Shown one piece after another: positions 23,170 to 39,605 of a stretch of 55,232 bases of DNA. A program made the position numbers and the translations under genes. Numbering within the stretch: position 1 is the first letter of the stretch; each line of letters opens with the position of its first letter. Under the pieces are notes generated by a model. The model was not told the origin of the DNA, did not search any database, and saw only the letters and a list, made by a program, of their open reading frames with translations. Origin of the DNA: an uncultured Thermomicrobiaceae bacterium (lineage in GTDB: Bacteria > Chloroflexota > Chloroflexia > Thermomicrobiales > Thermomicrobiaceae); assembly GCA_938082375.1 (NCBI GenBank), contig CALKCJ010000040.1, positions 1 through 55,232 of the forward strand, read 5' to 3'.

Positions 23170-25506
23170 ATGGACCTTCGTCCTGCATTCGAGCACCCGG
23201 GCACTCGCAGCCCGATCGATCCGCCAGAGGATTCGGTCTCCGGGAATGGTCACAACGCGGAGCCGGCAGGCCTCGCCCCCCTCTCGGTCATCGCGCCGAC
23301 GCGCAACGAGGCGGAGAATATTGCGCCGCTCGTCGCCAGGCTGGAGCGTGTGCTTCCCGACGGTGCCGAGATCGTCTTCGTCGACGACAGCGACGACGAG
23401 ACACCGGCGATGATCAAGGCGGTGGCCTTGCGCTCGCGCTGTCCGATCCGGTTGATCCATCGCCCTCCTGGCCAGCGGGCTGGCGGCCTGGGTGGGGCAG
23501 TCGTCGCCGGGCTGCGCGCCGCCCGTTCGACCTGGGCCTGCGTCATGGACGCGGACTTGCAGCACCCGCCGGAGTTGATCCCGCGCCTGCTGGCTCAAGC
23601 CAGGTTGACGCAAGCTGACTTGGTGATCGCCAGCCGGTACTGCGACGAGGGGAAGGCCGAAGGGCTCGACCGGTTCCGCACGGCGATTTCCCGTACCTCC
23701 ACCACGGCTGCACGGCTGGCCTTCCGGCGCCGCCTGCGGCGGGTAAGCGACCCGATGAGCGGGTTCTTCCTCCTGCGGAAAGACCTTGTCGATTTGGATA
23801 CCCTTCGGCCGCGTGGCTTCAAGATCTTGCTTGAGATCCTGGTGCGGAACCCACGCCTCAAGGTGAGCGAGGTCGGTTTCGCGTTCGGCAAGCGGCATGC
23901 TGGAGAGAGCAAGGCCTCACTGCGCGAGGGGTTCCGCTACCTGGCCCACCTCGGCACCTTGCGGCTCGGAGAGGACGCGCTGCGCTTCGCCGCCTTCGCC
24001 GCGATCGGCCTCTCGGGCCTAGTGGTGAACACGCTCGCCCTGCTCGCCGGAACCGAGGTGTTCGGTTTCCATTACCTGCTCTCCGTCGTTTTTGCCACCT
24101 GGGCGTCGACGCTCTGGAACTTCAGCCTGACTGATACCTGGGTGTTCGGCGACCGCCGGCAGGCCAACCGCTGGGGTGAGCGGCTCACGATGTTCGCGTT
24201 CGTCAATACACTGGCCCTGCTGGTGCGCGGCCCGATGATCTATGTCCTGACCTCGCTGGTGGGCGTCTACTATGTCCTCTCGAACATCATCTCACTCGTG
24301 GCTCTCTCGCTCCTCCGCTACGGGATGTCGGACGCCTGGATTTGGAAGGCCACGCGTCGCCCGCGTGCGAAGGGCCCGTACGGCTACGACATCCACGGGA
24401 TCGTTACCGTGTGGTCGGAGGCCTGGCTACCCGAGCTCGAGTACTTCCTCACGACCGAAACGATCGACCGGCCAACGATCCGGGTGCGGATCGGCGGGCT
24501 GCGCTCGCCGGGCCCGCTCGGCCGAGCGGGAAGTGTCACCGCCACCCCGGACGGCCAGCGGTTCTCCTATGACGACGGCCTCGGCCCACTGGGGTTCTGG
24601 ATCGACGTCACCGTGGGCGAGACGGTCGGAGTGATTGCCTCGCCCTTCCTGCGCCGGTCGCCGCACGTGCTGTACACCAACGTGGTGGAGCCGATCCTGC
24701 GCTGGACGTTCGTGCGCCAGGGGTATGCCCTCGTCCACGGTGCCTGCATCGCCTTCGGCCAGCAGGCCTACCTGGTAACCGCGCGCACCGACACTGGCAA
24801 GACGACGACGATCCTGCGCGTGCTCGACCGCCAGCGCCGGGCTACCGACACTGGCGCCTTCCTCTCCGACGACCTGACGCTGCTCAGCCCCGACGGCCGG
24901 GTGTTGTGTTATCCGAAGCCGATGACGATCAGCCGGCACACGGTGGCCGCCGTCAACACCCCGGTTCTCTCGCGCCGGCAACGGCTCGGACTCTGGGTAC
25001 AGAGCCGGCTCCATTCGCGCGAAGGGCGGCGGTTCGCCCTCCTGCTCGCCCGCACACGCTTGCCGGTTGCCACCATCAATGCTGTGGTGCAGTGGATCGT
25101 GCCGCCCCCCAAGTACCACATCCAGCAGCTGGTACCCCGCGCCAAGTGGGCGCGTGAGGCGAGATTGGCCGGCATGTTCGTCATTGAGCGTGGCGGCGAG
25201 GGGGAGATTCCGCTCGATGATCGCGCGGCGCTGGATACCCTGCTGAGCAACAGTGACGACGCGTACGGGTTCCCGCCCTACCCCGCCATCCGCCACCACC
25301 TGTACCGGCTTCACGGGCACGATCTGCGCCCGATCGAGGAGCAGATCGTCGCCCAGGCGCTCAGCGGCGTGCCGGCTCGCTTACTCCAGAGCAGCGCCAT
25401 GGATTGGTGGCAGCGCATCCCGACTCTGGTCAATCGGTGCGACGCACGGCCCGCGGTCGAGCAGCCGGCATCTCCGGTCGTCCCGACCGGCGCGAGCGCG
25501 ACCTAG
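23170..25506 (+). CDS. fusion: polyprenyl-phosphate glycosyltransferase (DPM1-like GT2) + GtrA domain + HPr-kinase-like P-loop domain
   Basis: The 778-aa product has three parts. Residues 38-240 are a GT2 dolichol-phosphate-mannose-synthase-like domain: LSVIAPTRNEAENIAPLV, VFVDDSDDETP, the DxD in MDADLQHPPELI (127-129), and SDPMSGFFLLRKDL. Residues 268-395 are a four-helix GtrA/DPMS_TM domain with FAAIGLSGLVVNTLALL and WNFSLTDTWVFGDRR. Residues 405-735 resemble HprK-like P-loop proteins: a Walker A-like ARTDTGKTTT (539-547, first Gly replaced), FLSDDLTLLSPDGRVLCYPK with the SDD element, and PPPKYHIQQLVP. The first two parts would make and present polyprenyl-phosphate sugar; the third may be a kinase or nucleotide sensor. 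GGAGGGGAG precedes the ATG. It heads the glycan locus. Confidence 0.85.
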   Translation: MDLRPAFEHPGTRSPIDPPEDSVSGNGHNAEPAGLAPLSVIAPTRNEAENIAPLVARLERVLPDGAEIVFVDDSDDETPAMIKAVALRSRCPIRLIHRPPGQRAGGLGGAVVAGLRAARSTWACVMDADLQHPPELIPRLLAQARLTQADLVIASRYCDEGKAEGLDRFRTAISRTSTTAARLAFRRRLRRVSDPMSGFFLLRKDLVDLDTLRPRGFKILLEILVRNPRLKVSEVGFAFGKRHAGESKASLREGFRYLAHLGTLRLGEDALRFAAFAAIGLSGLVVNTLALLAGTEVFGFHYLLSVVFATWASTLWNFSLTDTWVFGDRRQANRWGERLTMFAFVNTLALLVRGPMIYVLTSLVGVYYVLSNIISLVALSLLRYGMSDAWIWKATRRPRAKGPYGYDIHGIVTVWSEAWLPELEYFLTTETIDRPTIRVRIGGLRSPGPLGRAGSVTATPDGQRFSYDDGLGPLGFWIDVTVGETVGVIASPFLRRSPHVLYTNVVEPILRWTFVRQGYALVHGACIAFGQQAYLVTARTDTGKTTTILRVLDRQRRATDTGAFLSDDLTLLSPDGRVLCYPKPMTISRHTVAAVNTPVLSRRQRLGLWVQSRLHSREGRRFALLLARTRLPVATINAVVQWIVPPPKYHIQQLVPRAKWAREARLAGMFVIERGGEGEIPLDDRAALDTLLSNSDDAYGFPPYPAIRHHLYRLHGHDLRPIEEQIVAQALSGVPARLLQSSAMDWWQRIPTLVNRCDARPAVEQPASPVVPTGASAT

Positions 25507-25586
25507 CGTGGGGACGGCTGGCGCCGGAGTCGAGGCCAGCCGCTAGGCAGTGCATCCGGTGCATCGGGTTACAAGCGGGAGCAAAA

Positions 25587-27218
25587 GTGGCAACGAAGCT
25601 GGATACCGATAAGCGACAACGCGCAACGAGCAGCAGATCACTCAGCACCTCGCTTCCCTGGATCGCAGTTCACCCCTGGCCCCGACGTGCACTTGTGGCA
25701 GCCGGCAGTGCAGCCGCGGTTGACCGACTGGTGCTGGCGGTGGCGCTGGTGGCAGGCACGGCGCTTCGGCTCTGGCAGATCAACCGCTTCGGCCTCAACA
25801 GTGACGAGGCAGTCTACCTGGGGCAGGCAGCGGCCATCGCTGGAGACCCGATCCTCAGCCAGTTCTTCCCGATCTTCCGCGCCCATCCGCTTCTCTTCCA
25901 GTTCATCCTGGCCCTCGCGTATCCGATCGGCGGCACGGACGGATCCGATCTCGTCGGACGGCTTGTCTCTGTCGTCGTCGGACTGGCGACGGTATACCTG
26001 GTCTACCGTGCCGGCGCGCGGCTCTACGGGCGACGTGCTGGAGCCATCGCCGCGCTGTTCCTGGCGCTCATGCCGTACCACGTCGTCGTGACACGCCAGA
26101 TCCTGCTCGATGGCCCGATGACGCTCGGCGCCACGCTCAGCCTCTACATGGTGGCCCGCTTCGCGGCGACCGAGCGCCCGGTGTGGCTCTACGCCGCTGG
26201 GGCCGGCATGGGGCTGACCTTCCTGGCCAAGGAGACGGGGATCATCCTCTTGGGCAGCATCTACACCTTCCTCGCCCTGGCACCGGACATCCGGTTTCGT
26301 CTGCGTGACCTCGCGCTCTCCACCGCCATCATGGCGCTGGTCATCGCCCCCTTCCCCCTCTCGATCATGCTGGCCGGCGGCGGCGGCTCGCAGCGCGCTC
26401 ACCAGTACCTCGTCTGGCAACTATTCCGTCGTCCCAACCACGAGTGGACGTTCTATCCCTCGACCGTGCCGCTCGCCATCGGCCCGCTCCTTATCCTGAC
26501 CGCGGTCCTCGGATTCTGGCTGGCTCGTCGCCAGTGGAGCTGGCGCGAGAAGCTGCTCGTCGCCTGGATCGCAGTACCAGTGCTCTTCTTCCAGTCCTGG
26601 CCGACGAAAGGGTTCCAGTATCTCCTCCCGATCGCGCCACCGCTCGCGATCCTCGCCGCGCAGGCGGTGATCCAATTGGGACACCGAGCTGCCGCCAGCA
26701 AGATTCGGCGCGCCGGGTGGTTTGTACCGCTCGCAGCCGGCGCGATCGCGCTGACGCTGCTGATCCCGAGCTGGGAACGAATCCAGACCTCGGCATCCGA
26801 GCGGTTTCTCGCCGGCTCGGGCGGCGTTCCGGGCGGGCGCGAAGCGGGCGAGTGGATCCGCGAGAACACCCCGGAGGGAGCGCGCTTCATGACCGTCGGG
26901 CCGTCGATGGCCAACATCATCCAGTTCTACGGCCACCGCGAGGGAAGGGGGCTCTCAGTCAGCCCCAACCCGCTGCACCGTAACCCAACGTATGAACCGA
27001 TTCTCAACCCCGATCTCCAGCTCCGCAGCGGCGAGCTCCAGTACGTCGTCTGGGACTCGTTCTCGGCAGGCCGTTCGGCGTTCTTCTCCGAGAAGCTGCT
27101 CAACTACGCCCGGCGGTACCACGGTCGGGTCGTGCACACCGAGGCGATCACGGTGGTTGCGCCCGAGGGTTCGGTCGTGCAGAAGCCCGTCATCGTCATC
27201 TACGAGGTACGCCCATGA
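25587..27218 (+). CDS. GT-C glycosyltransferase, GT39/ArnT-like
   Basis: The 543-aa integral membrane protein has about ten to twelve hydrophobic segments. The first periplasmic loop has GLNSDEAVYLGQAAAIAGDP, the acidic DE pair typical of PMT/ArnT (PMT_2) enzymes that use polyprenyl-phosphate sugars. Further motifs are LVGRLVSVVVGLATVYLVYR, PYHVVVTRQILLDGPMTLGA and LTFLAKETGIILLGSIYTFL. A soluble C-terminal domain follows EWIRENTPEGARFMTVGP. The start is GTG 25587 (GCGGGAGCAAAA upstream); the open frame further upstream overlaps the previous gene and is not protein-like. It would use the lipid-linked sugar made by the upstream fusion protein and is followed by the phosphoesterase gene with an ATGA overlap. 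Confidence 0.85.
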   Translation: MATKLDTDKRQRATSSRSLSTSLPWIAVHPWPRRALVAAGSAAAVDRLVLAVALVAGTALRLWQINRFGLNSDEAVYLGQAAAIAGDPILSQFFPIFRAHPLLFQFILALAYPIGGTDGSDLVGRLVSVVVGLATVYLVYRAGARLYGRRAGAIAALFLALMPYHVVVTRQILLDGPMTLGATLSLYMVARFAATERPVWLYAAGAGMGLTFLAKETGIILLGSIYTFLALAPDIRFRLRDLALSTAIMALVIAPFPLSIMLAGGGGSQRAHQYLVWQLFRRPNHEWTFYPSTVPLAIGPLLILTAVLGFWLARRQWSWREKLLVAWIAVPVLFFQSWPTKGFQYLLPIAPPLAILAAQAVIQLGHRAAASKIRRAGWFVPLAAGAIALTLLIPSWERIQTSASERFLAGSGGVPGGREAGEWIRENTPEGARFMTVGPSMANIIQFYGHREGRGLSVSPNPLHRNPTYEPILNPDLQLRSGELQYVVWDSFSAGRSAFFSEKLLNYARRYHGRVVHTEAITVVAPEGSVVQKPVIVIYEVRP

Positions 27219-28642
27219 TCCGCTGGCAAGTCTTTCTCACCAGTTTGACGCTCCTGGCCTGCCTAGCCCTGTTCACCGGGCTCCTGCCACAGCGCTCGGC
27301 GCGGGCTGCCGAGCCGCAGCCGAAAACACCGATCAAGCACTTCATCGTGCTCATGCAGGAAAACCATACCTTCGACAACTACTTCGGCACCTACCCCGGC
27401 GCCGACGGGATCCCGGAGGGAGTCTGCATGCCAATCGATCCCGCCGACCCGGCTGGCGAATGCGTCGAGCCGTTCCATATCGGCAACCGGCCCATCGAAG
27501 ATCTCGACCACAGCACCGCGACCGCCCTGAACCAGTACAACGGCGGGAAGATGAACGGCTTCGTCTGGGCCTTGCGACTGCGCAACCAGGAGGGCTCGCT
27601 CGCCATGGGCTACTACGACGGCCGGGAGCTGCCCTACCACTGGAACCTCGTCGACCAGTACGTGCTGTTCGATCGCTTCTTCAGCTCGGCGATGGGCGGC
27701 AGCGTCTGGAACCACATGTACTGGGTCGCGGCCCAGCCCGGGAGCGAGAAGAACCAGATCCCTCCTGAGGGATACGGCGACGACGTGATCACCATCTTCG
27801 ACCGGCTGGAGGAGCGCGGGATCTCCTGGAAGTTCTACATCCAGAACTACGACCCCACCATTACCTTCCGCACCATGGATCAGGGAGGCCAGCGCGCCGC
27901 TCAGGTAGTGTGGTGTCCGCTGCTCAACTTCCCGCGCTTCATTGATAACCCCGAGCTGTTCAACCACATCGTGCCGCTGGACGAGTACTTCACGGACCTC
28001 CAGAACGGCACGCTGCCCTCGGTGGCCTACATCGTGCCTTCGGGCGCCAGCGAGCACCCGCCCGGGAGCATCCGGGCAGGGCAGCGGTTCGTGAAGTCGC
28101 TGCTCCAGGCCCTAATGCGCAGCGACGCCTGGTACAGCTCGGCCTTCATGGTCACGTACGACGACTGGGGAGGCTGGTATGACCACGTTCCCCCGCCGAA
28201 GGTCGACGACTACGGCTATGGCTTCCGCGTCCCCGCCTTCCTGGTCAGCCCGTACGCCAAGCAGGGCTATATCGATCACACCGAGCTCGACTTCACCTCG
28301 ATCCTCAAGTTCATCGAGGAGAACTGGGGGCTGGAGCCACTCGCCGAGCGCGACGCCCGGGCCAACAGCATCAGCAACGCCTTCGACTTCTCCCAGCCGC
28401 CCCGTCCGCCGAGCTTCATCCCAGAGGAGCGAGCCAGCGACGAGGAGCGCCCCAGCCCGCGGCGGGGCGTGATCTACACCGCCTACGGGTTGGGGCTCTT
28501 TCTGGCTGGGTCGGTCATCGGCTGGGCAGCGCTCGATTCCCGCCGCAGACGAAGCGCCGACCCCGTTTATCCCCTGAGGAAACTTACCCGGCGCCGGAGA
28601 CGCATGATGCCGAAGAGATCGAGGGGAGCACCAGGCTCATGA
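27215..28642 (+). CDS. membrane-anchored phosphoesterase (phospholipase C / acid phosphatase family)
   Basis: The 475-aa product has a signal peptide (1-32, ending ARAAEP) and a phosphoesterase-family (PF04185-type) domain. HFIVLMQENHTFDNYFGTYP at 41-61 has the catalytic ENHTFDxYFG motif; FDRFFSSAMGGSVWNHMYWV, VAYIVPSGASEHPPG and MVTYDDWGGWYDHVPPPKVD supply further ligands. After FDFSQPPRPP there is a charged spacer, a membrane helix (YTAYGLGLFLAGSVIGWAAL) and an Arg-rich tail, so the enzyme is anchored outside with a cytoplasmic C-tail. The family includes phosphatidylcholine-type phospholipase C and acid phosphatases. ATGA overlaps join it to genes on both sides, placing it in the glycan operon. 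Confidence 0.88.
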   Translation: MIRWQVFLTSLTLLACLALFTGLLPQRSARAAEPQPKTPIKHFIVLMQENHTFDNYFGTYPGADGIPEGVCMPIDPADPAGECVEPFHIGNRPIEDLDHSTATALNQYNGGKMNGFVWALRLRNQEGSLAMGYYDGRELPYHWNLVDQYVLFDRFFSSAMGGSVWNHMYWVAAQPGSEKNQIPPEGYGDDVITIFDRLEERGISWKFYIQNYDPTITFRTMDQGGQRAAQVVWCPLLNFPRFIDNPELFNHIVPLDEYFTDLQNGTLPSVAYIVPSGASEHPPGSIRAGQRFVKSLLQALMRSDAWYSSAFMVTYDDWGGWYDHVPPPKVDDYGYGFRVPAFLVSPYAKQGYIDHTELDFTSILKFIEENWGLEPLAERDARANSISNAFDFSQPPRPPSFIPEERASDEERPSPRRGVIYTAYGLGLFLAGSVIGWAALDSRRRRSADPVYPLRKLTRRRRRMMPKRSRGAPGS

Positions 28643-30717
28643 GATCATCAAGAGGTTATCTCGCGAGTATGATCCTCGCCCTGGCGCTCATCTCCCTCAG
28701 CACGCTGCCTGAGGCGCCGGCCCGAGCCGCCGAAGAGTCGCCGCTTCCGACCGCGCTAACGATCCGGCCGCTCGATCCGGTGACGGTGGGCGAGAGCTTT
28801 ACCATCGTCGCCCAGCTCACCAGCGCCACCGGCGATATCCCCGGCGCCGTCAACAACGAGGCGCTCGAGCTGTTCATCAATGGCGTGCGCGAGCGGCGAA
28901 CCCGAACCAACTTCGCTGGCGCCGCTTCGTTCCCGATCCGGCGTTTCCTCCCGGTGGGGCAGTACACCGTCACGGCGGTCTACGCGGGCAGCCGCTCGTT
29001 GCAGCCGGCGAGCACCACGGCAACGCTAGCCATCGTGCCGGCGGTGCTCGAGATCAAGACGGTCCCGGCCCTCGCCGGGGTCACCTTCTCGTTCGATGGG
29101 CAGATGCTCCGCTCCGGCGAGGACGGGAGAGCGCGCATCGAGATCGCCACCCCTGGCATCTACCCGCTCGCGGTGCTTCCCGTCGAGCGTGACGACATCC
29201 ACGCCGAGTTCAGCCGCTGGGGCGACGAGATCTTCACTACCACGCGAGAGGTCGTGATGCCAGAGATGAAGACGATCGAAGTCGGATTCGACGTCAGCTA
29301 CCAGGCGAGCTTCTCGTTCGTCGACCTCGCTGGCCTACCGGTCGATCCGAGGCGGATCACCTCGATCACGCTCAAGAGCAGCCTGGGCGAGACGCGCACG
29401 CTCACAAGCTCCGGGCCGGAGTGGTTCAAGGCCGGGCGGGTCGTCCGCCGCTTTCAGGGACTGGAGGAGACGCCTGTCCAGTGGTCGGTCGAGAGCGTCA
29501 TCATGGGCGGCACGAACGTCGTCAACCAGTTCCAACAGCGGTTCTACCTCGAACCCGGCTCGCACCTCCAGATCGAACTGTTACTCTATGCGGCCCGGTT
29601 CACGGCACGGGACGCGCTGTTCGGCTTCCCTATCGGCAAAGGCATCACGCTCCAATACCCGGACGGATCGGTCGAGGTGATCCCCTTCGGGGCTGACCAC
29701 CAGGCATTTGTCACCTCGCTGCCGCGTGGGGAATACCTCGTCAGCGTCGCTGGCGCTCCCGGCCTCTCGCCTGCCTCGCCCATCGCTCTCTCCAAGAATC
29801 AAGAAGCGGAACTGCTGGTCATGAGCTACCTCGACCTAGCCGTGGCCGGCGCACTCGTCGCGCTGCTGGCGACTGGGCTCTTACTCGTGGGCCGGCCACA
29901 CCTGCTGACCTGGCTCAAGCTCCCTGCCCCGTCTCATGGCTACCGCACGGCAGCACTCGCGGTCACCGGCGCGACACTGGTGCTCGGATTGACCGTCTTC
30001 ACGCTCGGATCCGGCCGGGAGCCGTCAGAGTCGACCGCTACACCGCTCTCCGGTCAGAGCCAGCCGAGCCCACCAGCAAAGAGCACGACCGAGACCGGAA
30101 CTCGCAACGAGGTCGAGGCCGTAGTACTACAATCGACCGCTTCCACCCCTGTCGTCCTGCCAGACGAGGCGATCGCCAGTGTGTTCCGAGCATTCTGGGA
30201 ACGCAACGGGGCCCTGGCCACGTTCGGTCACCCGATTCGCGCGGCAGAAGAGCGGCGAGACCCGCAGACCGGCCAGGTGCTGATCATGCAGGAGTTCGAG
30301 CGTGCACGGCTCGAGCACCACCCGGAACTCAGCGGCACGCCGTACGAGATCCAGCTCGGGCTCCTCGGATACGAGGATGCAGTCCAGCGGGGCATCCGCG
30401 ACACCGAGCCCTTCCAACCGCAAGAGCCTGCGCCGGAGGAGCGCCAGGATTGCACCTATTTCTGGCAAACCGGGCACTGGGTCTGCTCGTACTTCCGGGC
30501 CTACTGGCGCAGCCGTGGGCTGGAGTTCGGCGATCCAGGCGTGTCGCTGCGCGAGTCGCTGGCGCTCTTCGGTTATCCGATCAGCGAGGAGTTCGGCGAC
30601 CCACAGACAGGCATGAGGGTGCAGTACTTCGAGCGCGCGCGGCTCGAGTACCACCCGGAGCACGCCGGGACACCGCACGAGGTACTCCCCAGCCACCTGG
30701 AGAGGGAGGAACCGTGA
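28639..30717 (+). CDS. secreted membrane protein with Ig-like domains and two C-terminal FGYPIS/YFERARLEYHPE repeats
   Basis: The 692-aa protein starts with a signal peptide (1-30) and an Ig-like domain (LTIRPLDPVTVGESFTIVAQ ... GQYTVTAVYAGSRSLQPAST). More beta-rich modules follow, then two membrane segments (YLDLAVAGALVALLATGLLL and TAALAVTGATLVLGLTVFTL), a Ser/Thr/Pro linker, and two copies of a motif. The first (about 512-577) reads FRAFWERNGALATFGHPI ... MQEFERARLEHHPELSGTPY. The second (about 617-688) reads FRAYWRSRG ... FGYPISEEFGDPQTG ... YFERARLEYHPEHAGTP. I know this motif from secreted Chloroflexota proteins; its function is unknown to me, possibly wall or glycan binding. It overlaps its neighbours by four bases on both sides. 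Confidence 0.82.
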   Translation: MRSSRGYLASMILALALISLSTLPEAPARAAEESPLPTALTIRPLDPVTVGESFTIVAQLTSATGDIPGAVNNEALELFINGVRERRTRTNFAGAASFPIRRFLPVGQYTVTAVYAGSRSLQPASTTATLAIVPAVLEIKTVPALAGVTFSFDGQMLRSGEDGRARIEIATPGIYPLAVLPVERDDIHAEFSRWGDEIFTTTREVVMPEMKTIEVGFDVSYQASFSFVDLAGLPVDPRRITSITLKSSLGETRTLTSSGPEWFKAGRVVRRFQGLEETPVQWSVESVIMGGTNVVNQFQQRFYLEPGSHLQIELLLYAARFTARDALFGFPIGKGITLQYPDGSVEVIPFGADHQAFVTSLPRGEYLVSVAGAPGLSPASPIALSKNQEAELLVMSYLDLAVAGALVALLATGLLLVGRPHLLTWLKLPAPSHGYRTAALAVTGATLVLGLTVFTLGSGREPSESTATPLSGQSQPSPPAKSTTETGTRNEVEAVVLQSTASTPVVLPDEAIASVFRAFWERNGALATFGHPIRAAEERRDPQTGQVLIMQEFERARLEHHPELSGTPYEIQLGLLGYEDAVQRGIRDTEPFQPQEPAPEERQDCTYFWQTGHWVCSYFRAYWRSRGLEFGDPGVSLRESLALFGYPISEEFGDPQTGMRVQYFERARLEYHPEHAGTPHEVLPSHLEREEP
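30172..30705 (+). repeat. two coding copies of a FW..G..FG.PI / EFERARLE.HPE module
   Basis: The copies lie at about 30172-30369 and 30489-30705. They share F-R-x-x-W, F-G-x-P-I, a DPQTG element, E/Y-F-E-R-A-R-L-E-x-H-P-E, G-T-P and an aliphatic end. They are similar at protein level rather than identical DNA, so the duplication is old. Confidence 0.75.
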
Positions 30718-31907
30718 AATCGAGATCGTACCGTACCGCGACCGTCATCGCCAGGGGCGGGATCAGGACGTGGTCATTCACCATTGTCCTCCTCCTGGCA
30801 GCGCTCACCGCGCTCGCGTCCCCCGTCTCGGCCCTGGCAGCCACCGAGTCGATCAAGACCGACCCGATCCTGGTGCTCGCGTACTACTACATCTGGTTCG
30901 ACCCGACCTCCTGGGACCGGGCCAAGACCGACTACCCGCTGCTCGGTCGCTACTCGAGTGACGACCGGGCTGTCATGCAGCAGCACATCCGCTGGGCCAA
31001 GCAGGCGGGGATCGACGGGTTCATCGTGAGCTGGAAGAGCACGCCAACGCTGAACCGTCGGCTGGAGCAGCTCGTCGAGTTGGCTGAGACCGAGCACTTC
31101 AAGCTCCTGATCATCTACCAGGGGCTAGACTTCGAGCGAAAGCCGGTCCCGGTCGAGAAGGTCGCCAGCGACCTGAACTACTTCGTCTACCGGTGGGCGA
31201 ACCACCCGGCCTTCGACCTCTTCGGCCGCCCGGTGGTGATCTGGTCGGGAACCTGGAAGTTCTCGACCGAGGAGATCGCAAGCGTCAGCGAGCGCTTCCG
31301 CGATCGCCTCTACATTCTCGCGTCTGAGCGCAATCTCGAGGGCTACCAGCGGGTAAGCCACCTGGTCGACGGCAACGCCTACTACTGGTCCTCGGTCGAT
31401 CCCGAGACCTATCCTGGCTACGAGGAGAAGCTGCAAGAGATGGGGGATGCGGTCCATGCGGACGGCGGCCTCTGGATTGCTCCGGCAGCGCCGGGCTTCG
31501 ACGCTCGCCTGATCGGCGGCACGAGAGTCGTCGAGCGCAAGGACGGCGAGACGTTGAAACGCGAGCTCGCCGCGGCGTTGAGCTCCTCTCCCGACGCGAT
31601 CGGCCTCATCAGTTGGAACGAGTTCAGCGAGAACAGCCACATCGAGCCGAGCGAGAGGTACGGCGCGCGCTACCTGGAGGTGCTGGCGCAGATCCGTGGG
31701 CTACCCGTCCCGAAAATCGGCATCTTCGACTCGGATGCCCCCGCGGCCACCGGCGCTGGCTATGGGCTCCCGATGATCGGGGCGATGGTTCTCCTCGTGA
31801 TCGCGAGCCTCGCCGCCATCGTCTGGAGGGAGGCATCCCGGCGCAAGCAGCCGGCTGACCCAGGGAAGCGAGACGCGACGGACGAGACCGCCGCGGACAT
31901 GCTCTAG
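30714..31907 (+). CDS. secreted, membrane-anchored GH99-like glycosidase
   Basis: The 397-aa product starts at GTG 30714, which overlaps the preceding TGA as GTGA. A signal segment (WSFTIVLLLAALTALASPVS ending ALAATE) precedes a GH99-like (WbsX/endo-mannosidase-type) domain: PILVLAYYYIWFDPTSWDRA, HIRWAKQAGIDGFIVSWKS, KLLIIYQGLD, RPVVIWSGTWKF, YILASERN, GLWIAPAAPGFD, and the catalytic-region motif SWNEFSENSHIEPSERYGARY. A C-terminal helix (LPMIGAMVLLVIASLAAIVW) anchors it in the membrane. Characterised GH99 enzymes are endo-acting alpha-mannosidases or mannanases; that fits a locus with a Dol-P-Man-synthase-like enzyme, although the substrate is inferred. Confidence 0.83.
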   Translation: MKSRSYRTATVIARGGIRTWSFTIVLLLAALTALASPVSALAATESIKTDPILVLAYYYIWFDPTSWDRAKTDYPLLGRYSSDDRAVMQQHIRWAKQAGIDGFIVSWKSTPTLNRRLEQLVELAETEHFKLLIIYQGLDFERKPVPVEKVASDLNYFVYRWANHPAFDLFGRPVVIWSGTWKFSTEEIASVSERFRDRLYILASERNLEGYQRVSHLVDGNAYYWSSVDPETYPGYEEKLQEMGDAVHADGGLWIAPAAPGFDARLIGGTRVVERKDGETLKRELAAALSSSPDAIGLISWNEFSENSHIEPSERYGARYLEVLAQIRGLPVPKIGIFDSDAPAATGAGYGLPMIGAMVLLVIASLAAIVWREASRRKQPADPGKRDATDETAADML

Positions 31908-31929
31908 AGCGAAGAGGAGAGTAGCACCG

Positions 31930-32637
31930 ATGAGACAACCAGCTCGCCAAGGCTATCTCGTCATTCTCGCCGTCGCGCTTCTGGCGTTCAACGGCTTCGT
32001 CGCCTACACCGCCGCTGGCCCGCGACTGGCGCCTGCTAGTGACGATTCGGTCGCCCGGCTTCAAGCCGAGCGGCGGTTTGTCGTCCCCCAAGAGATCGCC
32101 GACCGGGTACGCCGGGCAGCGGCGAGCAGAGCGCAACCCTACAGGAGCTATGTGACGCTCGGCCACGACTCCGACAAGATTACCGTGGAGGTGCCGGCAG
32201 CCTGGAACGAGATCGACTACCAGTCCTGGGTCTACCAAGGGCAAGAAGTTGGCCTCGCGCTGCTAGCCTCGACCGACCTCGTCGCCTTCAATCAGCGGTC
32301 AGCCCCTGGCGTCTTCGTCGGCGTGTCCCATTTCCTCGCCGAGAGCTCAGACCCACAGACCGTCCTCCAGACCGAGGAGCAAGGCTTTTCCAGTGGCTGT
32401 GCCCGGAGCCGGCGCCTCGACTACGACGATGCCATCTACAAGGGATGGTTCGACCATTTCACCTGTGACGGAGCGAGCAGTGTGATTATGGCCGTTACGA
32501 CGACGCCGGACGGCGGTTTCATCGTGCTCATCCGTGTGGTGCTTCGCACTCCGGCCGACCTCGAGGCTGCGAAGCGGATTTTCGATACCTTCCAAGTCGT
32601 GGGCGATCCCGAGCAGGACGAGCACCACGATCATTAG
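31930..32637 (+). CDS. secreted or membrane-anchored hypothetical protein
   Basis: The 235-aa product has an N-terminal membrane/signal helix (YLVILAVALLAFNGFVAYTA) and an extracytoplasmic domain of unknown family. VEVPAAWNEIDYQSWVYQGQ, VGLALLASTDLVAFN and APGVFVGVSHFLAESSDP resemble the PsbP-like fold found at the C-terminus of some secreted Chloroflexota and actinobacterial proteins. GFSSGCARSRRLDY and WFDHFTCDG provide two cysteines that could form a disulphide. The C-terminus ends EHHDH. GAGGAGAG precedes the ATG. It lies 22 bases after the GH99-like gene and 10 bases before the PHP gene, so it belongs to the same transcript. Confidence 0.7.
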   Translation: MRQPARQGYLVILAVALLAFNGFVAYTAAGPRLAPASDDSVARLQAERRFVVPQEIADRVRRAAASRAQPYRSYVTLGHDSDKITVEVPAAWNEIDYQSWVYQGQEVGLALLASTDLVAFNQRSAPGVFVGVSHFLAESSDPQTVLQTEEQGFSSGCARSRRLDYDDAIYKGWFDHFTCDGASSVIMAVTTTPDGGFIVLIRVVLRTPADLEAAKRIFDTFQVVGDPEQDEHHDH

Positions 32638-32647
32638 GAGGAGGATC

Positions 32648-35617
32648 ATGAACGTGCACCACCACCCGAGGACACCGCGCACCCCACACTGTCACCTCGC
32701 CTTGCTCGGCACCCGCGCTCTCGGTCGATTGGCACGCCGCTGCCCGGCAGGTACGCGTGCAGCCTTGCTGGCGCTCGCTGTCGCTCTTCTGCTCGCGCCA
32801 GCCTCGGATCTGTTGCCCAGACAGACGCAGGCCCAGACTGGCTGGCAGTGGTACATGGTCGACACCCACGTTCACTCCACGGTGAGTTCAGACGCGTTCA
32901 CCGATGTCGGTATTCACGCGGCCGCAGCGAAGGCTTTGGGCTACAATGCTCTCTTCCTCACCGATCATAACGGCGGCAGCAGCTTTCACATCAACAACCT
33001 GACCGCCAACCACATGGTCTTCGAGGACAGCTATGTCCGCTGGGAGAAAGGAGCGTTCGGCACCGTCAGTAGCAGCCGCAACGAGCTGGCGAGCTCGCCG
33101 GTCAACACCGGAACCAGATCGCTGTATCTCCGGGCCAGCTCGAGCGGCTACGGCGAGACCTATGTCTGGACCAAGCGGGGGCCGAACTTCCGCTCCGGTG
33201 ACATCATCTTGAAGGTCTCGATCTACCCGACGCGGATCGATACCGGATCCGGCATCTACGTGTCGGCCTCAATTGGCGGCGACCCGACCGTGGTCAAGGA
33301 TCCGTATGGCTACACGACCCAGGGTGGCAACCCCTCGCCCGGCAAATCGACCGTCCTCGTCTGGCAGCTTGGCTCGGCGCGCGCCCCGTCCTCAGACCCA
33401 AACCAGCGCGTGCTGGTCTACTCGCTCGGTACTCCGACGCTCAACGCCTGGAATCACTACACCATCAACGTCACCCAGGCGCTGAACGATATCCCGGCCG
33501 CGGATCGCCCGCTCGACTACAACGGCCTGACCTTCCTGAAAATGGCTGTGGCGGGCAACGGTGGGACAGCCGAAGCTTACTTCGATACCTACTCAATCGA
33601 CGCCTCGAACCCGGTGGCCCCAGCAGACGAGTTCGTCTCACGTACCCCCTGGGTCGACGACTTCGACACCGCTACCTTCAACGTCTTCGCCTCGTACGAG
33701 ATGGGGCAACAAAAGCACTCCAACCGGTTCAACTTCGCCATCACCGATCCGACGCAGTACGTCTCCTACCTCTATGGTTCCGACGGCATCAGGGAGACAC
33801 AGCAGACCGGCTACCCGGCTCAGCTCAACCACCCTGGGACAACGATCACCGTCCAGGAAGCCATCGACACCCAGGGGAAGGGAGCGGACTTTCTCGAGGT
33901 CCGTGAGCCGGAATGGGTGACAGCCTGGGACGCGATCCTCACGCAAGGGGTGCAGATCATCGGGACCTGGTCGAGCGACACCCACACCGGTGAGACTGCC
34001 GGCAAGGCAGCCACATTCATCTACGCTCCCGCGCTCGAGTTCAATGAGCTGATCCACTCCTACTTCGAGGGGCGCGTCTATAACGCGCGCAACGACTTCG
34101 GCGGCCAGGTCATCTTCAACCTCGACGCCGCGTCGCAGGAGCCGTACCCCGCTCGCTATCCGGTCTACGTCTCCAGCTCCCAGGCGACCGCCAATGTCCA
34201 CCTGGCAGTCACGGACGGCCTGCGCAGCAGCTATACCGTCCGCTGGATCCGCAACGGCCAGGTGTTCGCGAGCGAGAACCCATCGGGCTCCTCCTACGAG
34301 GCAACGAAGGCGATCCCGCTTGATGGGCCGTTCACCTACGTCCGAGCGGAGATCCTCAGCTCGAGCGGCTCGCTCCGTGCTATGACCCAGCCTATCTTCT
34401 TCATCGATGTCTCGGGGCTCCCAACCGACAAGGGCCTCCACATCGAGCGGACGACCACCGCCGACGACATCTGGTACAACACGCTCTACACAAAGGGCAT
34501 CACCGCGACGAGCTGGTCCGGAGACATCCAGGCGCTGTCGTTCACGCTCAGCAATCCAGCCGAGGCCGTCGTCCGCCTGCGGATGCAGACCGACGTGGCG
34601 CCGAACCGGGTCAAGGTTGACGGCACACTGGTTTCGGCAGCCGGATCCCTGCCGGACTTCGAAGCCGCGACCGGCTCGAGCTGGTACTACGATAGCGGAG
34701 CCAAGTTGCTCCACCTTCAGGTCCGGCATGCCAGCAGGACCGCCGATGTCCTGGTCGCCTTCTCAGCCCAGACCGACACAGCACCTCCGACTGCACCAGT
34801 GAATCTAAGCGCGAACGCGATCAACAGCAATCGGGTTGACCTGCGCTGGGATCCCTCGACCGACAACGTCGGCGTCTCCGGCTACGATCTCTACCGCGAC
34901 GGCGCTCTCCTGGCCTCGATCGGGACCGAGACCAGCTACTCGGACACCACGGTCGTCGCCGAGACCACGTACTCGTACGAAGTGAAGGCGCGCGACGCGG
35001 CCGGCAACGTGTCTGGCCCCAGCAACACCGTGACCGCGACGACGCCGGCCGCCGCGCTCTTCAGCGATGGTTTCGAGACCGGCGATCTCTCACAGTGGAC
35101 CAGTTCGACCGGGCTCGTCGTCCAGCAGCAGGAGGTCTTCAGCGGCAGCTATGCCGCCCGCGGCACCTCCACCGGCAGCGCCACCTATGCCACCAAGCAG
35201 CTCTCCAGCAGCCAGACCGACCTCTACTATCGCCTGCGCTTCAAGCAGATCAGCCAGGGCTCTAACACGGTCTACCTGCTCCGCTTCCGCACCGGCACCG
35301 GCGGCTCGCTGCTCGGGCTCTACGTGAGCAGCACCGGCAAGCTTGGCTTCCGCAACGACGTAGCCGGCCAGAGCACGACTAGCTCGATCACCGTGACCAC
35401 CGGCGAGTGGCACGAGGTCCAGGTCCACCTCGTCATCAACGGCTCCTCCAGCCTGGTGGAGGTCTGGTACGACGGCACCAAGGTCGACGCCCTGAGCAAG
35501 ACCCAGTCGCTCGGCACTAGCGCCATCGGCCGCATCCAGCTCGGCGAGAACTCGACCGGCCGCACCTACGACATCATCTTTGATGACGTGGCGGTCAATA
35601 CCAGCTTCATCCAGTGA
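32648..35617 (+). CDS. large secreted PHP-domain metallo-phosphoesterase with fibronectin III and C-terminal lectin-like module
   Basis: The 989-aa product has a long N-region and a signal helix (RAALLALAVALLLAPASDLL). The PHP domain follows: WYMVDTHVHSTVSSDAFTDV (HxH pair), NALFLTDHNGG, and, after a 330-residue insertion, TGYPAQLNHPGT and IIGTWSSDTHTGE. The insertion includes a lectin-like part around SGDIILKVSIYPTRIDTGSG. Next come a beta domain with SGLPTDKGLHIERTTTADD, a fibronectin type III domain (APVNLSANAINSNRVDLRWD ... YSYEVKARDAAGNVSG) and a LamG/concanavalin-like C-terminus (DGFETGDLSQWTSSTG ... EVWYDGTKVDA). The PHP part probably hydrolyses a phosphoester outside the cell. AGGAGGATC precedes the ATG. 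No anchor is seen, so it may be released. Confidence 0.8.
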   Translation: MNVHHHPRTPRTPHCHLALLGTRALGRLARRCPAGTRAALLALAVALLLAPASDLLPRQTQAQTGWQWYMVDTHVHSTVSSDAFTDVGIHAAAAKALGYNALFLTDHNGGSSFHINNLTANHMVFEDSYVRWEKGAFGTVSSSRNELASSPVNTGTRSLYLRASSSGYGETYVWTKRGPNFRSGDIILKVSIYPTRIDTGSGIYVSASIGGDPTVVKDPYGYTTQGGNPSPGKSTVLVWQLGSARAPSSDPNQRVLVYSLGTPTLNAWNHYTINVTQALNDIPAADRPLDYNGLTFLKMAVAGNGGTAEAYFDTYSIDASNPVAPADEFVSRTPWVDDFDTATFNVFASYEMGQQKHSNRFNFAITDPTQYVSYLYGSDGIRETQQTGYPAQLNHPGTTITVQEAIDTQGKGADFLEVREPEWVTAWDAILTQGVQIIGTWSSDTHTGETAGKAATFIYAPALEFNELIHSYFEGRVYNARNDFGGQVIFNLDAASQEPYPARYPVYVSSSQATANVHLAVTDGLRSSYTVRWIRNGQVFASENPSGSSYEATKAIPLDGPFTYVRAEILSSSGSLRAMTQPIFFIDVSGLPTDKGLHIERTTTADDIWYNTLYTKGITATSWSGDIQALSFTLSNPAEAVVRLRMQTDVAPNRVKVDGTLVSAAGSLPDFEAATGSSWYYDSGAKLLHLQVRHASRTADVLVAFSAQTDTAPPTAPVNLSANAINSNRVDLRWDPSTDNVGVSGYDLYRDGALLASIGTETSYSDTTVVAETTYSYEVKARDAAGNVSGPSNTVTATTPAAALFSDGFETGDLSQWTSSTGLVVQQQEVFSGSYAARGTSTGSATYATKQLSSSQTDLYYRLRFKQISQGSNTVYLLRFRTGTGGSLLGLYVSSTGKLGFRNDVAGQSTTSSITVTTGEWHEVQVHLVINGSSSLVEVWYDGTKVDALSKTQSLGTSAIGRIQLGENSTGRTYDIIFDDVAVNTSFIQ

Positions 35618-35698
35618 GCGAGGAGGTGGGCTACGCATATCGGCGGGCGCTAGCCGCCGGCGACGGCGGCCGGCTGACGGGAGGGGGAAGGACGACGC

Positions 35699-36691
35699 GT
35701 GGAGCGCCGAGCATGCCGAGCACGTCGTGGACTGTGGTTCGCAGCCCTCGGGATCTGCCTGGCGCTGCCACTCATGGCTTGCAGCAGCGCGGTACAGCGG
35801 CCGTTCTTCGTGGCCGAGGCGGGAACCATCACCAAGAATCTCTGCTTCGGCCCCGAGAGCCTGCCCGGCGGGTTCGAGGTGATCGGCAAGGAGATCTACG
35901 ACCACGCGGCCGCCGCCAGAGGCACGCCTGATCCGAGGCAACGGGAGCGCGACTACGTGGCCTGGGGACGGGTGACCGGGTCATTCTTGCAGTGGGCATT
36001 CGAGCCGCCGAGCGTCCCGGCGGAGGACGCCGACGGCACCATGTCGGAAGCGGAGATCGAGGCCGCTCTCGAGCAAGCGCGCCAGGAGACGCTCGCTGCC
36101 CCCTTCACCGGAGCGACCTGCCGCGTCGATCTCTACGAGACGATCGAAGGGGCGAGCCAGGCATTCGTGGCCGAGGCTGGAGACCTCTTGGCGCAGCCGT
36201 CTACGGCGGAGATCGAGCGAGACCTGCTGGGAGATGAGAGCTTGCTCCTGGTCCGTCGCTACGATGCTCCGCCGATCAGCCGGTTCATCCTCATCGTCCG
36301 CCTGCAGAACGTGATCGGGCAGGTCACGGTGAGCGCTCCCTGCGACACGCCTGGAGGACAGCCCTGTGCCGTTGCCGAGGACCGGACCCGCTCGCTCGGC
36401 ACGCTGCTCATCCGCCGCCTGGCCGCGAGCGCCCCCCTATCTACTCCGGTTCAGCAGAGCGAACGCGCGGAGACAGGAGCGACGGTACGCCAGGAGGCCG
36501 AGCGGCTCTGCCCCGAGCGCGACTACACCGGCTGCGTCACCGCCTACCTCGAGCACGCCCAGCAGCCCGAGCCGGCCGCGCTGTGCCAGACCGAGTACGG
36601 CGAGTGGTTCTTCGAGCCGCCGGCCGGCCGTGTGGACGAGCTCTGCGCCGACGGCGAGGCGAGTATCATCGCAATCGTGGGCGGCCAGTGA
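35699..36691 (+). CDS. lipoprotein, hypothetical
   Basis: The 330-aa product starts at GTG 35699 (GGGAGGGGGAAGG upstream). Its lipoprotein signal is GLWFAALGICLALPLMACSS, with lipobox LMAC and Cys at residue 28. The mature part is rich in Glu, Ala and Cys, for example ETLAAPFTGATCRVDLYETI, SLLLVRRYDAPPISRFILIV and GQVTVSAPCDTPGGQPCAVA. The last part, LCPERDYTGCVTAYLEHAQQ, has further cysteines. I do not recognise a family; several Cys residues suggest disulphides. It follows the PHP gene by 81 bases on the same strand and is the last gene of the rightward locus. It ends against a cluster of hairpins. Confidence 0.72.
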   Translation: MERRACRARRGLWFAALGICLALPLMACSSAVQRPFFVAEAGTITKNLCFGPESLPGGFEVIGKEIYDHAAAARGTPDPRQRERDYVAWGRVTGSFLQWAFEPPSVPAEDADGTMSEAEIEAALEQARQETLAAPFTGATCRVDLYETIEGASQAFVAEAGDLLAQPSTAEIERDLLGDESLLLVRRYDAPPISRFILIVRLQNVIGQVTVSAPCDTPGGQPCAVAEDRTRSLGTLLIRRLAASAPLSTPVQQSERAETGATVRQEAERLCPERDYTGCVTAYLEHAQQPEPAALCQTEYGEWFFEPPAGRVDELCADGEASIIAIVGGQ

Positions 36692-36696
36692 GCGTA

Positions 36697-36786
36697 GTGC
36701 AGGCGCAGAGGCTTTCCCCCTGCGCCTGCACACCCCCTTCCCGCGCTCGGAGCGCGGGCAGCCAGGATTGCTCGCTAACCCTGGCT
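36697..36786. terminator. three tandem hairpins between convergent genes
   Basis: Hairpin 1: GTGCAGGCGCAG (36697-36708) with CTGCGCCTGCAC (36720-36731), 12 perfect pairs. Hairpin 2: CCCGCGCT with AGCGCGGG (36740-36758), 8 pairs around CGG. Hairpin 3: AGCCAGG (36760-36766) with CCTGGCT (36780-36786), 7 pairs. They fill the 108 bases between the lipoprotein stop and the stop of the facing gene, and probably end both transcripts. No long T-tract is present. Confidence 0.65.
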
Positions 36787-36799
36787 TGCCCGCGTACAC

Positions 36800-39265
36800 C
36801 TAGTACTGTACTTGGTACGACCCGCTGTCGAGTACCACCCCGCTGTCGCTCACGAAGGCCCACTCGTAGTGGTCGGGATACAACTTGAGCACCAGCACGC
36901 CGAAGTGCGTCTCGTCGGCGTACTCCCAGTTGTTCGCCGACTTGTTGGCGTCGACGTCCTGGACGTTCTTGCCACCGGCGCCGTTCACGAAGTGCCGGAT
37001 CCCGTTCGGGTCCTTCGTCCCGTCCCAGCGCTGTGGCGCGTGTCGCTGGTAATTGTGGTCATGGCCGGCTAGTGAGAGCTCCACATCGTACTGGGTGAAC
37101 AGCTTGTAGAGGTCGGTCAGGTTGCTGTCGCAGCAGTTGTGGTACTTGCCGGTCGACCAGTACGGGTGGTGCATGAAGACGATGACGTTCTTGCTGGCGT
37201 TGGCCTCCAGCACGCTCTTGACGAAGTTGTACTGCGGCGAGCCCGCGGTGCAGCCACCCACCTGGGAGCAGTTGGAGTTCACTGCGATCGCCATCCAGCC
37301 GTTGCCCAGATCGACCGCGTAGTACCCCTTGGAGCGGTCACCGGCCAACGCGCCGAAGTAGTCGTAGTAGCCGGCCGCGCCGCTGGTCAGGTACTCGTGG
37401 TTGCCGGGCACCGGCCTGGTGACGCTCTTGAGCTGGCCCCAGGTGGGGTCGTAGCTCTGCTGGTACTTGGAGAGGGTCCCGTCCTCGTACTGGGTGTCGC
37501 CGAGGACGAAGACGTAGTGGGGGCCCTGGGCCGCGGCCACCTGGGCGGTGTACTTGTGGCGGCAGGCCGAGCTGGTGCCGTTGTTGTTGTTCCAGCTACT
37601 CGAGGCCGGGTCGCAGGCGATGTCGCCGGCCGCGACGACGACCACCGGGTTGCCGCTTGTGGGCGGCGGGGTCGGTGTGGGGGTTGGCGTGGGGGTGACA
37701 CCCGGCGTCGGAGTTGGAGTCGGTGTCGGGGTGGGCGTCGGGCTGGTGCCGCCGGACGCCTGGCCGTCGGAATGCAGGGCGTCCAGGTAGGCGCCGTAGC
37801 CGGAGCTGGTGGCCCACTCCTGGGCAGATTCGACTGCGGTTCCCTCACCCCACTCGTTGAAGGTGGTGATCAATTGCCAGGGTTCGCCAGAGGCCACCAT
37901 GTCGCGGATGTTCTGCTGCCAGCGCGCGAGGTCGCGCGGAAGGCGCGGCTGGCTCTCCTCAACGTGCCAGAAGCCTGGGGAGATGGCGTAGGAGTAGCCC
38001 TTCTGATGGTCAGCGGCGACGGCCGGGCTGTACTGGTGCCAGGAGTCAGGCTGATTGGCACAGGTCCGGTAGCCGGAGAAGACCTTGAGCACCAGGTAAG
38101 CACCGAGCTCACGCGCCACCGGTACCCAGCGATCCGCCACCTCGCAGGAGCTATCGTCGGCGTTGTAGACGAAGACGACGAACTTGCCGTTGACCCGCAG
38201 GTAATCCGGGTCGCTGGCGTACTTGTCGCGGATGTAGGTGAGGTCGGAGCGGATCTCGCTGGTTGAGAGGTCGCGCTGCCCCTCCTGCTCGTGGTAGATC
38301 GCCCACTTGAAGCCGGTGCCGTCGGTCGCCTGCATGATGGCGGCGAAGTCGTTGTCGGTGTGATGCCCCTGCCCCCACCAGGAGGCGATGCCAGCCTGGA
38401 TCTTCCCGTGCTGCATGGCGGCGATGTGCTGCTTGATCACCGTCGGATCGGCCGTGTCGTAGTAGCCGAGAGACGGGTGGTAGCGGGTATACGGGAAGAT
38501 GCCGGACTGCTTCCAGGCCTCGGGGAACCATGGGTAGTAGAAGACAGCCCGGATCGGAAAACTCAGGCTGCCGCCGGTCCCTGGCTGCGGCGTCGGCGTG
38601 GGGGTCGGCGTTGGGCTCGGGGTGGGCGTCGGCGTCGAGCCTGATCCTGGCGCCGCTGTCGAGGTGGGAGTAGCCGTAGGTGTGGAGCCGGAAGTGGAGC
38701 CGTCCGTCTCCACCACGAGCTGGGGCGGGTTCGTGCCTTTCTCGCGGCTGGTCAGCTTCATCTGCGTGGAGCTGGTTGTGGTCAGCGCTAGGCTGACCAC
38801 TCCGTTGCCTTTGACCAGCGGTGTGACATCGACGACTGTCCACTGGCCCGTTGCGAACCCACCCGAGCGAGCGATCACGCTGGAGCCGACTGGCGGAGCT
38901 GTGTTGTAGGTGATCTTGAGCTCGTCCCAGGTGGTATCCGCCACCGGGCGCACCTCGTATCCAACGCTATGGGAACTCTCGGCGTAGACCCAGAGCGTCG
39001 CCTTAGTCACCGAGCCGCTCAGCCCCTGCACGTTGAAGCGCAGGTAACTCCGCATCACCGGCGAGCCGTCGGCTCGGAGCGCGGTCGAGCGCCCGTAGTT
39101 TTGGTCGGGCTTGTTCTCATAGACATAGGCGTCAGCTTGAGCCACGAAGCCGAGCCGCTGGGTCGCGCCCGAGCTCTCGCCGCTCCAGGCGACCGAGAGC
39201 GCAGCCACGAGGATGCCCAGCACGCTGGCAAAGGCCAGCCAGCGCAGCAGTGTGTGCCGTGTCAT
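36800..39265 (-). CDS. multidomain secreted enzyme: DNRLRE + GH99-like + metallophosphatase
   Basis: The product (821 aa from ATG 39265; a TTG at 39271 closer to AGGAGG is an alternative start) has a signal peptide (HTLLRWLAFASVLGILVAAL). A DNRLRE/CBM96-like domain follows (43-190: ADAYVYENKPDQNYGRST, RSYLRFNVQGLSGSVTKATL, YNTAPPVGSSVIARSG), then a Thr/Pro linker and a GH99-like domain (about 235-505: FPIRAVFYYPWFPEAW, GIASWWGQGHHTDND, LITTFNEWGEGTAVESAQEW). After a second Thr/Pro linker comes a calcineurin-like/purple-acid-phosphatase-type domain with all metal motifs: VAAGDIAC, VLGDTQYEDG, VPGNHEY, VFMHHPYWSTG, LAGHDHNYQRHAP. It may cleave a glycan and remove phosphate from the same polymer. 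It faces the glycan operon. Confidence 0.88.
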   Translation of the reverse strand: MTRHTLLRWLAFASVLGILVAALSVAWSGESSGATQRLGFVAQADAYVYENKPDQNYGRSTALRADGSPVMRSYLRFNVQGLSGSVTKATLWVYAESSHSVGYEVRPVADTTWDELKITYNTAPPVGSSVIARSGGFATGQWTVVDVTPLVKGNGVVSLALTTTSSTQMKLTSREKGTNPPQLVVETDGSTSGSTPTATPTSTAAPGSGSTPTPTPSPTPTPTPTPQPGTGGSLSFPIRAVFYYPWFPEAWKQSGIFPYTRYHPSLGYYDTADPTVIKQHIAAMQHGKIQAGIASWWGQGHHTDNDFAAIMQATDGTGFKWAIYHEQEGQRDLSTSEIRSDLTYIRDKYASDPDYLRVNGKFVVFVYNADDSSCEVADRWVPVARELGAYLVLKVFSGYRTCANQPDSWHQYSPAVAADHQKGYSYAISPGFWHVEESQPRLPRDLARWQQNIRDMVASGEPWQLITTFNEWGEGTAVESAQEWATSSGYGAYLDALHSDGQASGGTSPTPTPTPTPTPTPGVTPTPTPTPTPPPTSGNPVVVVAAGDIACDPASSSWNNNNGTSSACRHKYTAQVAAAQGPHYVFVLGDTQYEDGTLSKYQQSYDPTWGQLKSVTRPVPGNHEYLTSGAAGYYDYFGALAGDRSKGYYAVDLGNGWMAIAVNSNCSQVGGCTAGSPQYNFVKSVLEANASKNVIVFMHHPYWSTGKYHNCCDSNLTDLYKLFTQYDVELSLAGHDHNYQRHAPQRWDGTKDPNGIRHFVNGAGGKNVQDVDANKSANNWEYADETHFGVLVLKLYPDHYEWAFVSDSGVVLDSGSYQVQY
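37660..38645 (-). repeat. two low-complexity Thr/Pro linker stretches in DNA
   Basis: At about 37665-37745 and 38583-38645 the coding DNA is a short degenerate hexamer repeat encoding PTPTPTP-type linkers between folded domains. The opposite strand therefore shows an artificial Val/Gly-rich open frame. Confidence 0.8.
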
Positions 39266-39605
39266 GTCCAACCGTCCTCCTTCACGCTCGCACCCCTTCC
39301 CGGCAAGCCGCCCGCCCAGGCCCTTCGGTCACGAGGCTTGACTGTGGGCGGAGCTGGCGCAACGCCCCATTGCGCCAGGGCCTGCCTGGCCCTTCCTGGC
39401 GGAGTGAAATGGGTACGAATTTCTTAGGGAATGGAATATTCGGCAGGGTATGCCCCAGAGTGCTGGCTGCCGGGGCACGAAATGAGGGACCCGATAGAGC
39501 GTGCTTTGACCACTCGGCAAAACCACCTGTTACCGTGACAGCGGCCGGCTACGTCCCTTCCCCGTACGCAGCGCGGGCACGCGTGTCCGTGCCTCAGGGA
39601 TCTGC

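Follow-up and report, generated by a model that had tools for sequence, protein, structure and literature searches.

A recurrent five-gene cassette combining a predicted transmembrane glycosylation system with an HprK/PEPCK-type kinase domain in Thermomicrobiaceae and other bacteria

Three-component and multi-component transmembrane glycosylation systems consist of a GT2 synthase, a GtrA-type or Wzx-type flippase and a GT-C glycosyltransferase that passes the sugar to a surface polymer outside the cytoplasm, and examples include GtrABC of Shigella and Salmonella, CsbB-GtcA-YfhO of Bacillus and GtlA-GtcA-GtlB of Listeria (PMC8035078). Phosphorylated intermediates are found in the polyprenyl-phospho-pentofuranose systems of Citrobacter O1/O2 and of mycobacteria (DPPR/DPA), in which a phosphorylated sugar is placed on polyprenyl phosphate, dephosphorylated and then used as a GT-C substrate, with the phosphate originating from PRPP and being removed inside the cell by a HAD phosphatase or the Rv3807c phosphatase (PMC11127046).

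Here we describe a locus in a window of 55,232 nucleotides, the whole stretch of DNA that was analysed, from an uncultured Thermomicrobiaceae bacterium. Its first two genes, A and B, resemble the three-component systems (PMC8035078) in supplying between them a GT-A-type lipid-sugar synthase, a GtrA-type flippase and a GT-C enzyme. The cassette differs from those systems in that GT2, GtrA and HprK/PEPCK-type kinase domains are fused in one protein, and in the fixed presence of further genes, which encode a phosphoesterase, an Ig stalk protein and a hydrolase of the GH99-like type. Unlike the pentofuranose systems (PMC11127046), it has a kinase, and its phosphoesterases are located outside.

A first-pass annotation of this DNA had reported eight rightward open reading frames and a convergent multidomain gene, and we found the same coordinates; the gene overlaps that it listed (ATGA at 27215, ATGA at 28639 and GTGA at 30714) are all exact, these three overlaps joining four genes. 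Pfam and NCBIfam searches also bore out the families it had named, namely GT2/GtrA, PMT-type, PF04185, Ig-type, both GH99-like proteins and the CBM96/DNRLRE-GH99-metallophosphatase. The view of all nine genes as one system was rejected, since comparison with the loci of relatives revealed a recurrent five-gene core, A to E (23170-31907), with the remaining genes F to I as accessories. A search for plasmid carriage returned no PLSDB match. Just upstream of the cassette, in the opposite orientation, lies a cytosolic PHP (histidinol-phosphatase-like) gene (21533-22462) that is conserved in the window's genus.

Gene A (23170-25506, plus strand) was delimited by Pfam matches and a full-length alignment of relatives, with which its start at 23170 is consistent. 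It encodes a GT2 domain (PF00535, 5e-25) with the DAD motif expected of a GT-A-type polyprenyl-phosphate-sugar synthase, a GtrA/DPMS membrane domain (PF04138, 8e-17) of the flippase type, with no second GtrA domain anywhere in the window's genome, and a C-terminal HprK/PEPCK-type kinase domain of 345 aa (24376-25410, plus strand). This last domain, which is more diagnostic than any other part of the locus and lends a phosphate step its strongest support, was overlooked in the first-pass annotation. It contains a Walker A motif (TDTGKTTT, about 24787-24810) and a DD pair (24868-24873). The P-loop lysine and the DD pair are nearly or fully invariant among relatives, and the motifs PKP..T and PPPKY are invariant. 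Among 69 relatives of the kinase, 58 match TIGR04352 (HprK_rel_A, HprK-related kinase A; best 1e-7), 57 match ScmC, 53 match TIGR04355 and 28 match HPr kinase, with weak matches to Pfam Hpr_kinase_C in 25. The window copy itself gave no confident Pfam or NCBIfam match (none to TIGR04352 at E<=1), and a search of its sequence against the PDB returned no significant match; matches came from fold comparison alone. An AlphaFold2 model built from the 69-sequence alignment (pLDDT 89.5, pTM 0.90) matched ATP-dependent PEP carboxykinases with Z scores of 13-14 (best 14.2, with about 262 of 345 residues aligned) and HprK/P 1ko7 with a Z score of 11.4 (2.6 A over 120 residues). Judged by this predicted structure, the C-terminal domain of A is of the HprK/PEPCK fold, complete with P-loop and DD pair.

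The domain shares its Walker A motif, DD pair and fold (Z 11-14) with the HprK family (TIGR00679, TIGR04352, TIGR04355, ScmC) and PEPCK, but it is only about 10-14% identical to HPr kinase/phosphorylase and PEPCK and is fused to GT2/GtrA. It further differs from HPr kinase/phosphorylase in having motifs of its own (YPKP.TIS.HT, PPPKY and NxxDAYGFPPY) and no HPr partner nearby. In A the kinase comes after the membrane helices of GtrA, and in variants lacking GtrA it sits immediately behind GT2; both arrangements would place it in the cytoplasm, assuming that the helix count of GtrA is even, as is usual.

Gene B (25587-27218, plus strand) encodes an ArnT/PMT-type GT-C transferase, the sole B-family protein in the window's genome. 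It matches PMT_2 of the PMT/ArnT clan (Pfam, 5e-22), and a profile search ranked ArnT 5ezm (1.6e-11) before the PMTs. An invariant D-E pair (D74 E75) lies in the first predicted outer loop, as expected for the acidic motif of GT-C enzymes. Comparison with the starts of relatives suggests that B probably begins at 25587 rather than at the first TTG, 25404. Gene C (27215-28642, plus strand) encodes a secreted PF04185 phosphoesterase (Pfam, 3e-77) with a signal peptide; it matches AcpA 2d1g and phospholipases C of bacteria, retains the D-D motif and carries the PF04185 active-site motifs QEN..FD and DD..G..DHV.

For gene D (28639-30717, plus strand), the alignment, an AlphaFold2 model (pLDDT 89.3), the Ig-like Pfam match Big_3_5 (5e-10) and matches to pilin/adhesin-type Ig and CnaB domains predict a membrane-anchored string of Ig/CnaB-like beta-sandwich domains that ends in a membrane helix, forming a stalk in the style of pilins and adhesins. 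A function for D based on its top Z matches, such as Nir2, was rejected because these matches span single Ig domains only. The C-terminus of D (30127-30690) holds two copies of the repeat FWE..GGLATFGHPI..FERARLEHHPE..GTPYE (FGYPI..YFERARLEYHP), which resembles LGFP-type cell-wall repeats and is present only in Thermomicrobia copies of D. Elsewhere in the window's own genome (L182:8041-10308; G000:C38, about 146-148 kb), a purple-acid-phosphatase (PAP)-like metallophosphatase is fused to D's membrane-proximal module (256 bits for the metallophosphatase and 152 bits for D), and this fusion adjoins Fe-S cluster (Suf) genes.

Gene E (30714-31907, plus strand) encodes a GH99/GH71-like hydrolase with a signal sequence and a C-terminal TM segment. 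It matches PF16317 (1.8e-14, 54 bits against a cut-off of 33) and GH99 4acy (2.6e-21), with NEWHE aligned to NEFSE, including both catalytic glutamates. W301, N302, E303 and E306 are invariant in 39 sequences, with the catalytic-type E303..E306 falling within WNEFSE, and related GH71/WbsX models match E as well. E is therefore like the GH99 endo-alpha-1,2-mannosidases/mannanases (4acy, 4ad1 and human MANEA) in profile and in keeping the catalytic NE..E region, but it differs from them in being membrane-tethered and in forming its own subfamily, whose scores stand well apart from those of the remaining GH99-like proteins of Chloroflexota, and a mannosidase role for E is best regarded as putative.

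With A's kinase domain as bait, a search of genome contigs identified 78 relatives, distributed among Chloroflexota/Thermomicrobiota, Deinococcota (Trueperaceae), Dormibacterota and Actinomycetota, the last of which is rich in the system (Thermoleophilia, Acidimicrobiia, Frankiales, Pseudonocardiales and Dermacoccaceae). Less secure are one Verrucomicrobiota locus, a weak case in which no B was found, and one Acidobacteriota locus, which is nested in Acidimicrobiales and may be a binning error. All-vs-all clustering of every ORF in the kinase loci, performed blind to the window's genes, recovered B at 63 loci, C at 52, the group containing E at 47 and D at 38; the other clusters of similar size were antisense frames of the B-E genes. 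As read from domain HMMs, the usual architecture of a locus is GT2-GtrA-kinase, GT-C, PF04185, Ig stalk and GH99; the genes share a strand in almost every case and mostly follow this order. At the 44 loci whose sequence extends 7.5 kb or more downstream of the kinase, B was present at 39, C at 35, D at 35 and E at 33, with all four present at 31. The 13 of these 44 loci that are without one or more of B-E, including two with the parts of A only (L138 and L091), imply that some loci can dispense with C and E. Sphaerobacter, also among the 13, carries A-D-B with neither C nor E, and in Sphaerobacter-type genomes A-D-B is followed by other secreted CBM96-metallophosphatase proteins.

A phyletic profile across 301 Chloroflexota genomes detected a strong kinase match in 14, cassette-type E (>300 bits) in 12 and D (E-value below 1e-60) in 12, with every E and D falling within the 14. 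A naive hypergeometric test of this co-occurrence gives 1e-19; because the genomes come from five families only, the true weight is less, if still strong. As for the two exceptions, the locus runs off the contig end in one (G179), and the other (G333) has a GtrA-kinase gene alone. Natural fusions (GT2-kinase, GtrA-B, GtrA-kinase-B, C-D and D-E, together with a single polypeptide joining E to a metallophosphatase) indicate that parts A-E are tied together, and the pairwise distance matrices of the five genes correlate with r of 0.62-0.88 (0 of 300 permutations as high), as expected if A-E mostly travel together. The cassette is dispensable, since the kinase is absent from a 99% complete genome of genus g6 (G016). 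The neighbourhood search that the first-pass annotation had recommended, with homologues never occurring together elsewhere as the outcome that would speak against a system, thus returned an ordered cassette that recurs across phyla.

At the loci examined, genes F, G and H occurred only in Thermomicrobiaceae, the single exception being a Thermoleophilaceae locus with a partial and weak match to PHP. Both the window's genus and genus g6 (about 60% identity) have A-B-C-D-E-G-H in collinear order. Gene F (31930-32637, plus strand) encodes a secreted protein seen only in the window's genus; a homologue is present in L046 and absent from L045 and L048, and g6 has no copy of F, nor does one genome belonging to the window's genus. 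An earlier description of F as PsbP-like was not confirmed, as F gave no Pfam or NCBIfam match. Gene G (32648-35617, plus strand), which has homologues in g6, encodes a secreted protein with PHP (CehA/McbA-type), fn3 (2e-5) and lectin-like domains, and its earlier assignment as a PHP protein gains support from the CehA/McbA NCBIfam model (NF038032, 4e-20, under its cut-off), but the Pfam match is weak. Gene H (35699-36691, plus strand) encodes a lipoprotein with an LPLMAC lipobox and has homologues in g1 and g6.

The convergent gene I (36800-39271, minus strand) joins CBM96, GH99-like and PAP-like domains through PT-rich linkers, and its GH99 domain (5e-16), like that of E, was matched by Pfam. 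I is beside the cassette in the window's genus (an 87% copy in L046) and about 10 kb off, next to a STAND gene, in g6, indicating that it is separable. The STAND/AAA ATPase and another protein (40175-42265 and 42924-43865 in the window) stay beside I in g6 despite the distance of ~10 kb to cassette genes A-H. The window's genome also contains a 64%-identical relative of I's metallophosphatase (G000:C27:23053-23973; L187:8841-9755), which is likely a decaying copy, as the match reads through one TAG stop. Across the 78 kinase loci, a secreted PAP-like metallophosphatase is found within 10 kb of the kinase at 35, sometimes between A and B, and these proteins often carry CBM96, fn3 or lectin-like modules; PAP-like metallophosphatases are a frequent but variable partner of the cassette. 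In one Chloroflexi clade, a small PHP-domain protein is encoded between the kinase and GT-C genes (L117:11148-11849), implying that PHP phosphoesterases joined the cassette more than once.

Sequence, fold and neighbourhood establish the domain identities, catalytic-type motifs, recurrence and fusions of A-E, and we interpret these genes, with a probability of roughly 0.6, as a GtrA-dependent three- or multi-component transmembrane glycosylation system that has gained a kinase and a set of processing components on the outer side. By analogy with the known three-component systems, the GT2 domain of A would load a sugar onto polyprenyl phosphate on the cytoplasmic side, the GtrA domain would flip the lipid-sugar to the outer face, and B would transfer the sugar outside to an acceptor made elsewhere. 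With low confidence in the substrate, we suggest that the kinase phosphorylates the lipid-linked sugar, or its polyprenol or sugar precursor, in the cytoplasm, ahead of the flipping step. C at the surface and the GH99-like E might, again with low confidence, trim or remodel the product, and the D stalk may hold these activities together or bind the product. The ORF clustering of the kinase loci revealed no recurrent neighbour of the polymerase, Wzx/Wzy or nucleotide-sugar type, and it is therefore more likely that the cassette decorates or processes an acceptor than that it builds a glycan. Of the earlier proposal that the locus builds and trims a phosphate-bearing, possibly mannose-based surface glycan or glycolipid, a recurrent extracytoplasmic glycan/phosphoester system is what stands; the building is not supported by the neighbouring genes, and mannose lacks support, as neither GT2 nor GT-C scores above the cut-off of any curated sugar-specific model.

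How the kinase participates is a more tentative matter. Conceivably, though we consider it doubtful, it makes a phosphorylated sugar on polyprenyl phosphate as the donor for B, with C and the PAP-like enzymes dephosphorylating outside and E editing the glycan. Were this so, the phosphate would be a removable cap or would be retained as phosphoglycan, and a kinase acting on a lipid-linked hexose together with outer phosphoesterases would represent, hypothetically, a different route to a phosphorylated lipid-sugar than that of the pentofuranose systems. Just as well, the role of the kinase might be to provide polyprenyl phosphate, to phosphorylate the sugar in its free form or to modify a protein, the last of which it could do by analogy with HprK.

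Several other explanations were weighed. A and B may glycosylate secreted proteins, including the nearby PT-rich modular hydrolases, with C and E acting in quality control or as unrelated surface enzymes. Such protein O-glycosylation is consistent with the place of B in the PMT/ArnT clan, with the long PT-repeat linkers of I, which are typical O-glycosylation sites, and with the recurrence of large secreted modular phosphatases near the cassette. We consider it unlikely given that the best solved relative of B is ArnT, a lipid A modifier and no protein transferase, that Pfam detected no PMT-type MIR domain, and that we know of no part played by GH99-like and PF04185 enzymes in this process. 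Also improbable is the processing of a lipoglycan, whereby B would add mannose from polyprenyl-P-mannose to a phosphoinositol-mannoside-like acceptor in the manner of PimE, C would cleave the phospholipid anchor and E would cut alpha-1,2-mannan. This would leave the kinase unexplained, neither GT2 nor GT-C gives a sugar-specific signal, and the Trueperaceae and Anaerolineae hosts are not known for such lipids; in its favor, C groups with bacterial phospholipases C, E has endo-alpha-1,2-mannosidases as its closest relatives, the system is abundant in Actinomycetota, and Thermomicrobia are said to have mannosylated phosphoinositol diol lipids, on which the literature searched yielded nothing. 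The three extracellular phosphoesterase types in one locus, along with the PAP-like enzymes at 35 of 78 loci, would also suit a role in phosphate scavenging and lipid remodelling, in which phosphate is freed outside under starvation and the glycosyltransferases make replacement glycolipids, but neither phosphate transporters nor Pho regulators are recurrent neighbours of the cassette, and an ATP-using kinase fused to a synthase is a poor fit, making this very unlikely. That the genes are chance neighbours of unrelated functions, as the lineage-specific F, G, H and I might suggest, is hardly credible and is ruled out for A-E by their order, fusions, congruent distances and common phyletic profile in several phyla.

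If the interpretation of A-E as a transmembrane glycosylation system with an added kinase is right, the cassette represents a widespread machine for surface glycosylation, so far undescribed, in phyla that are monoderm and poorly understood, here from a hot-spring bacterium. A kinase wired into the polyprenyl-phosphate-sugar step is absent from the described three-component systems, and its conserved domain provides a marker for finding the system in any genome. To our knowledge, no system of this composition has been described, as the first-pass annotation had also stated. The literature searched contained no published description of the cassette, an absence that is not proof of novelty, and nothing relevant on a GT2-GtrA-kinase fusion or on GH99 in such loci. 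Cultured hosts, namely Thermalbibacter longus, Thermomicrobium sp. CFH 73360, Flexivirga endophytica and Leekyejoonella antrihumi, make the system directly testable.

A second arrangement, in which GT2 genes accompany a more distant HprK-like kinase (44-55 bits) and CBM96-metallophosphatases, was also observed at two loci from family f3 of the same taxonomic order (L060:8358-11394 and L062:4931-13780), the latter of which comes after a histidine kinase and response regulators. The combination of an HprK-like kinase, a GT2 enzyme and a secreted phosphatase may thus be a wider theme.
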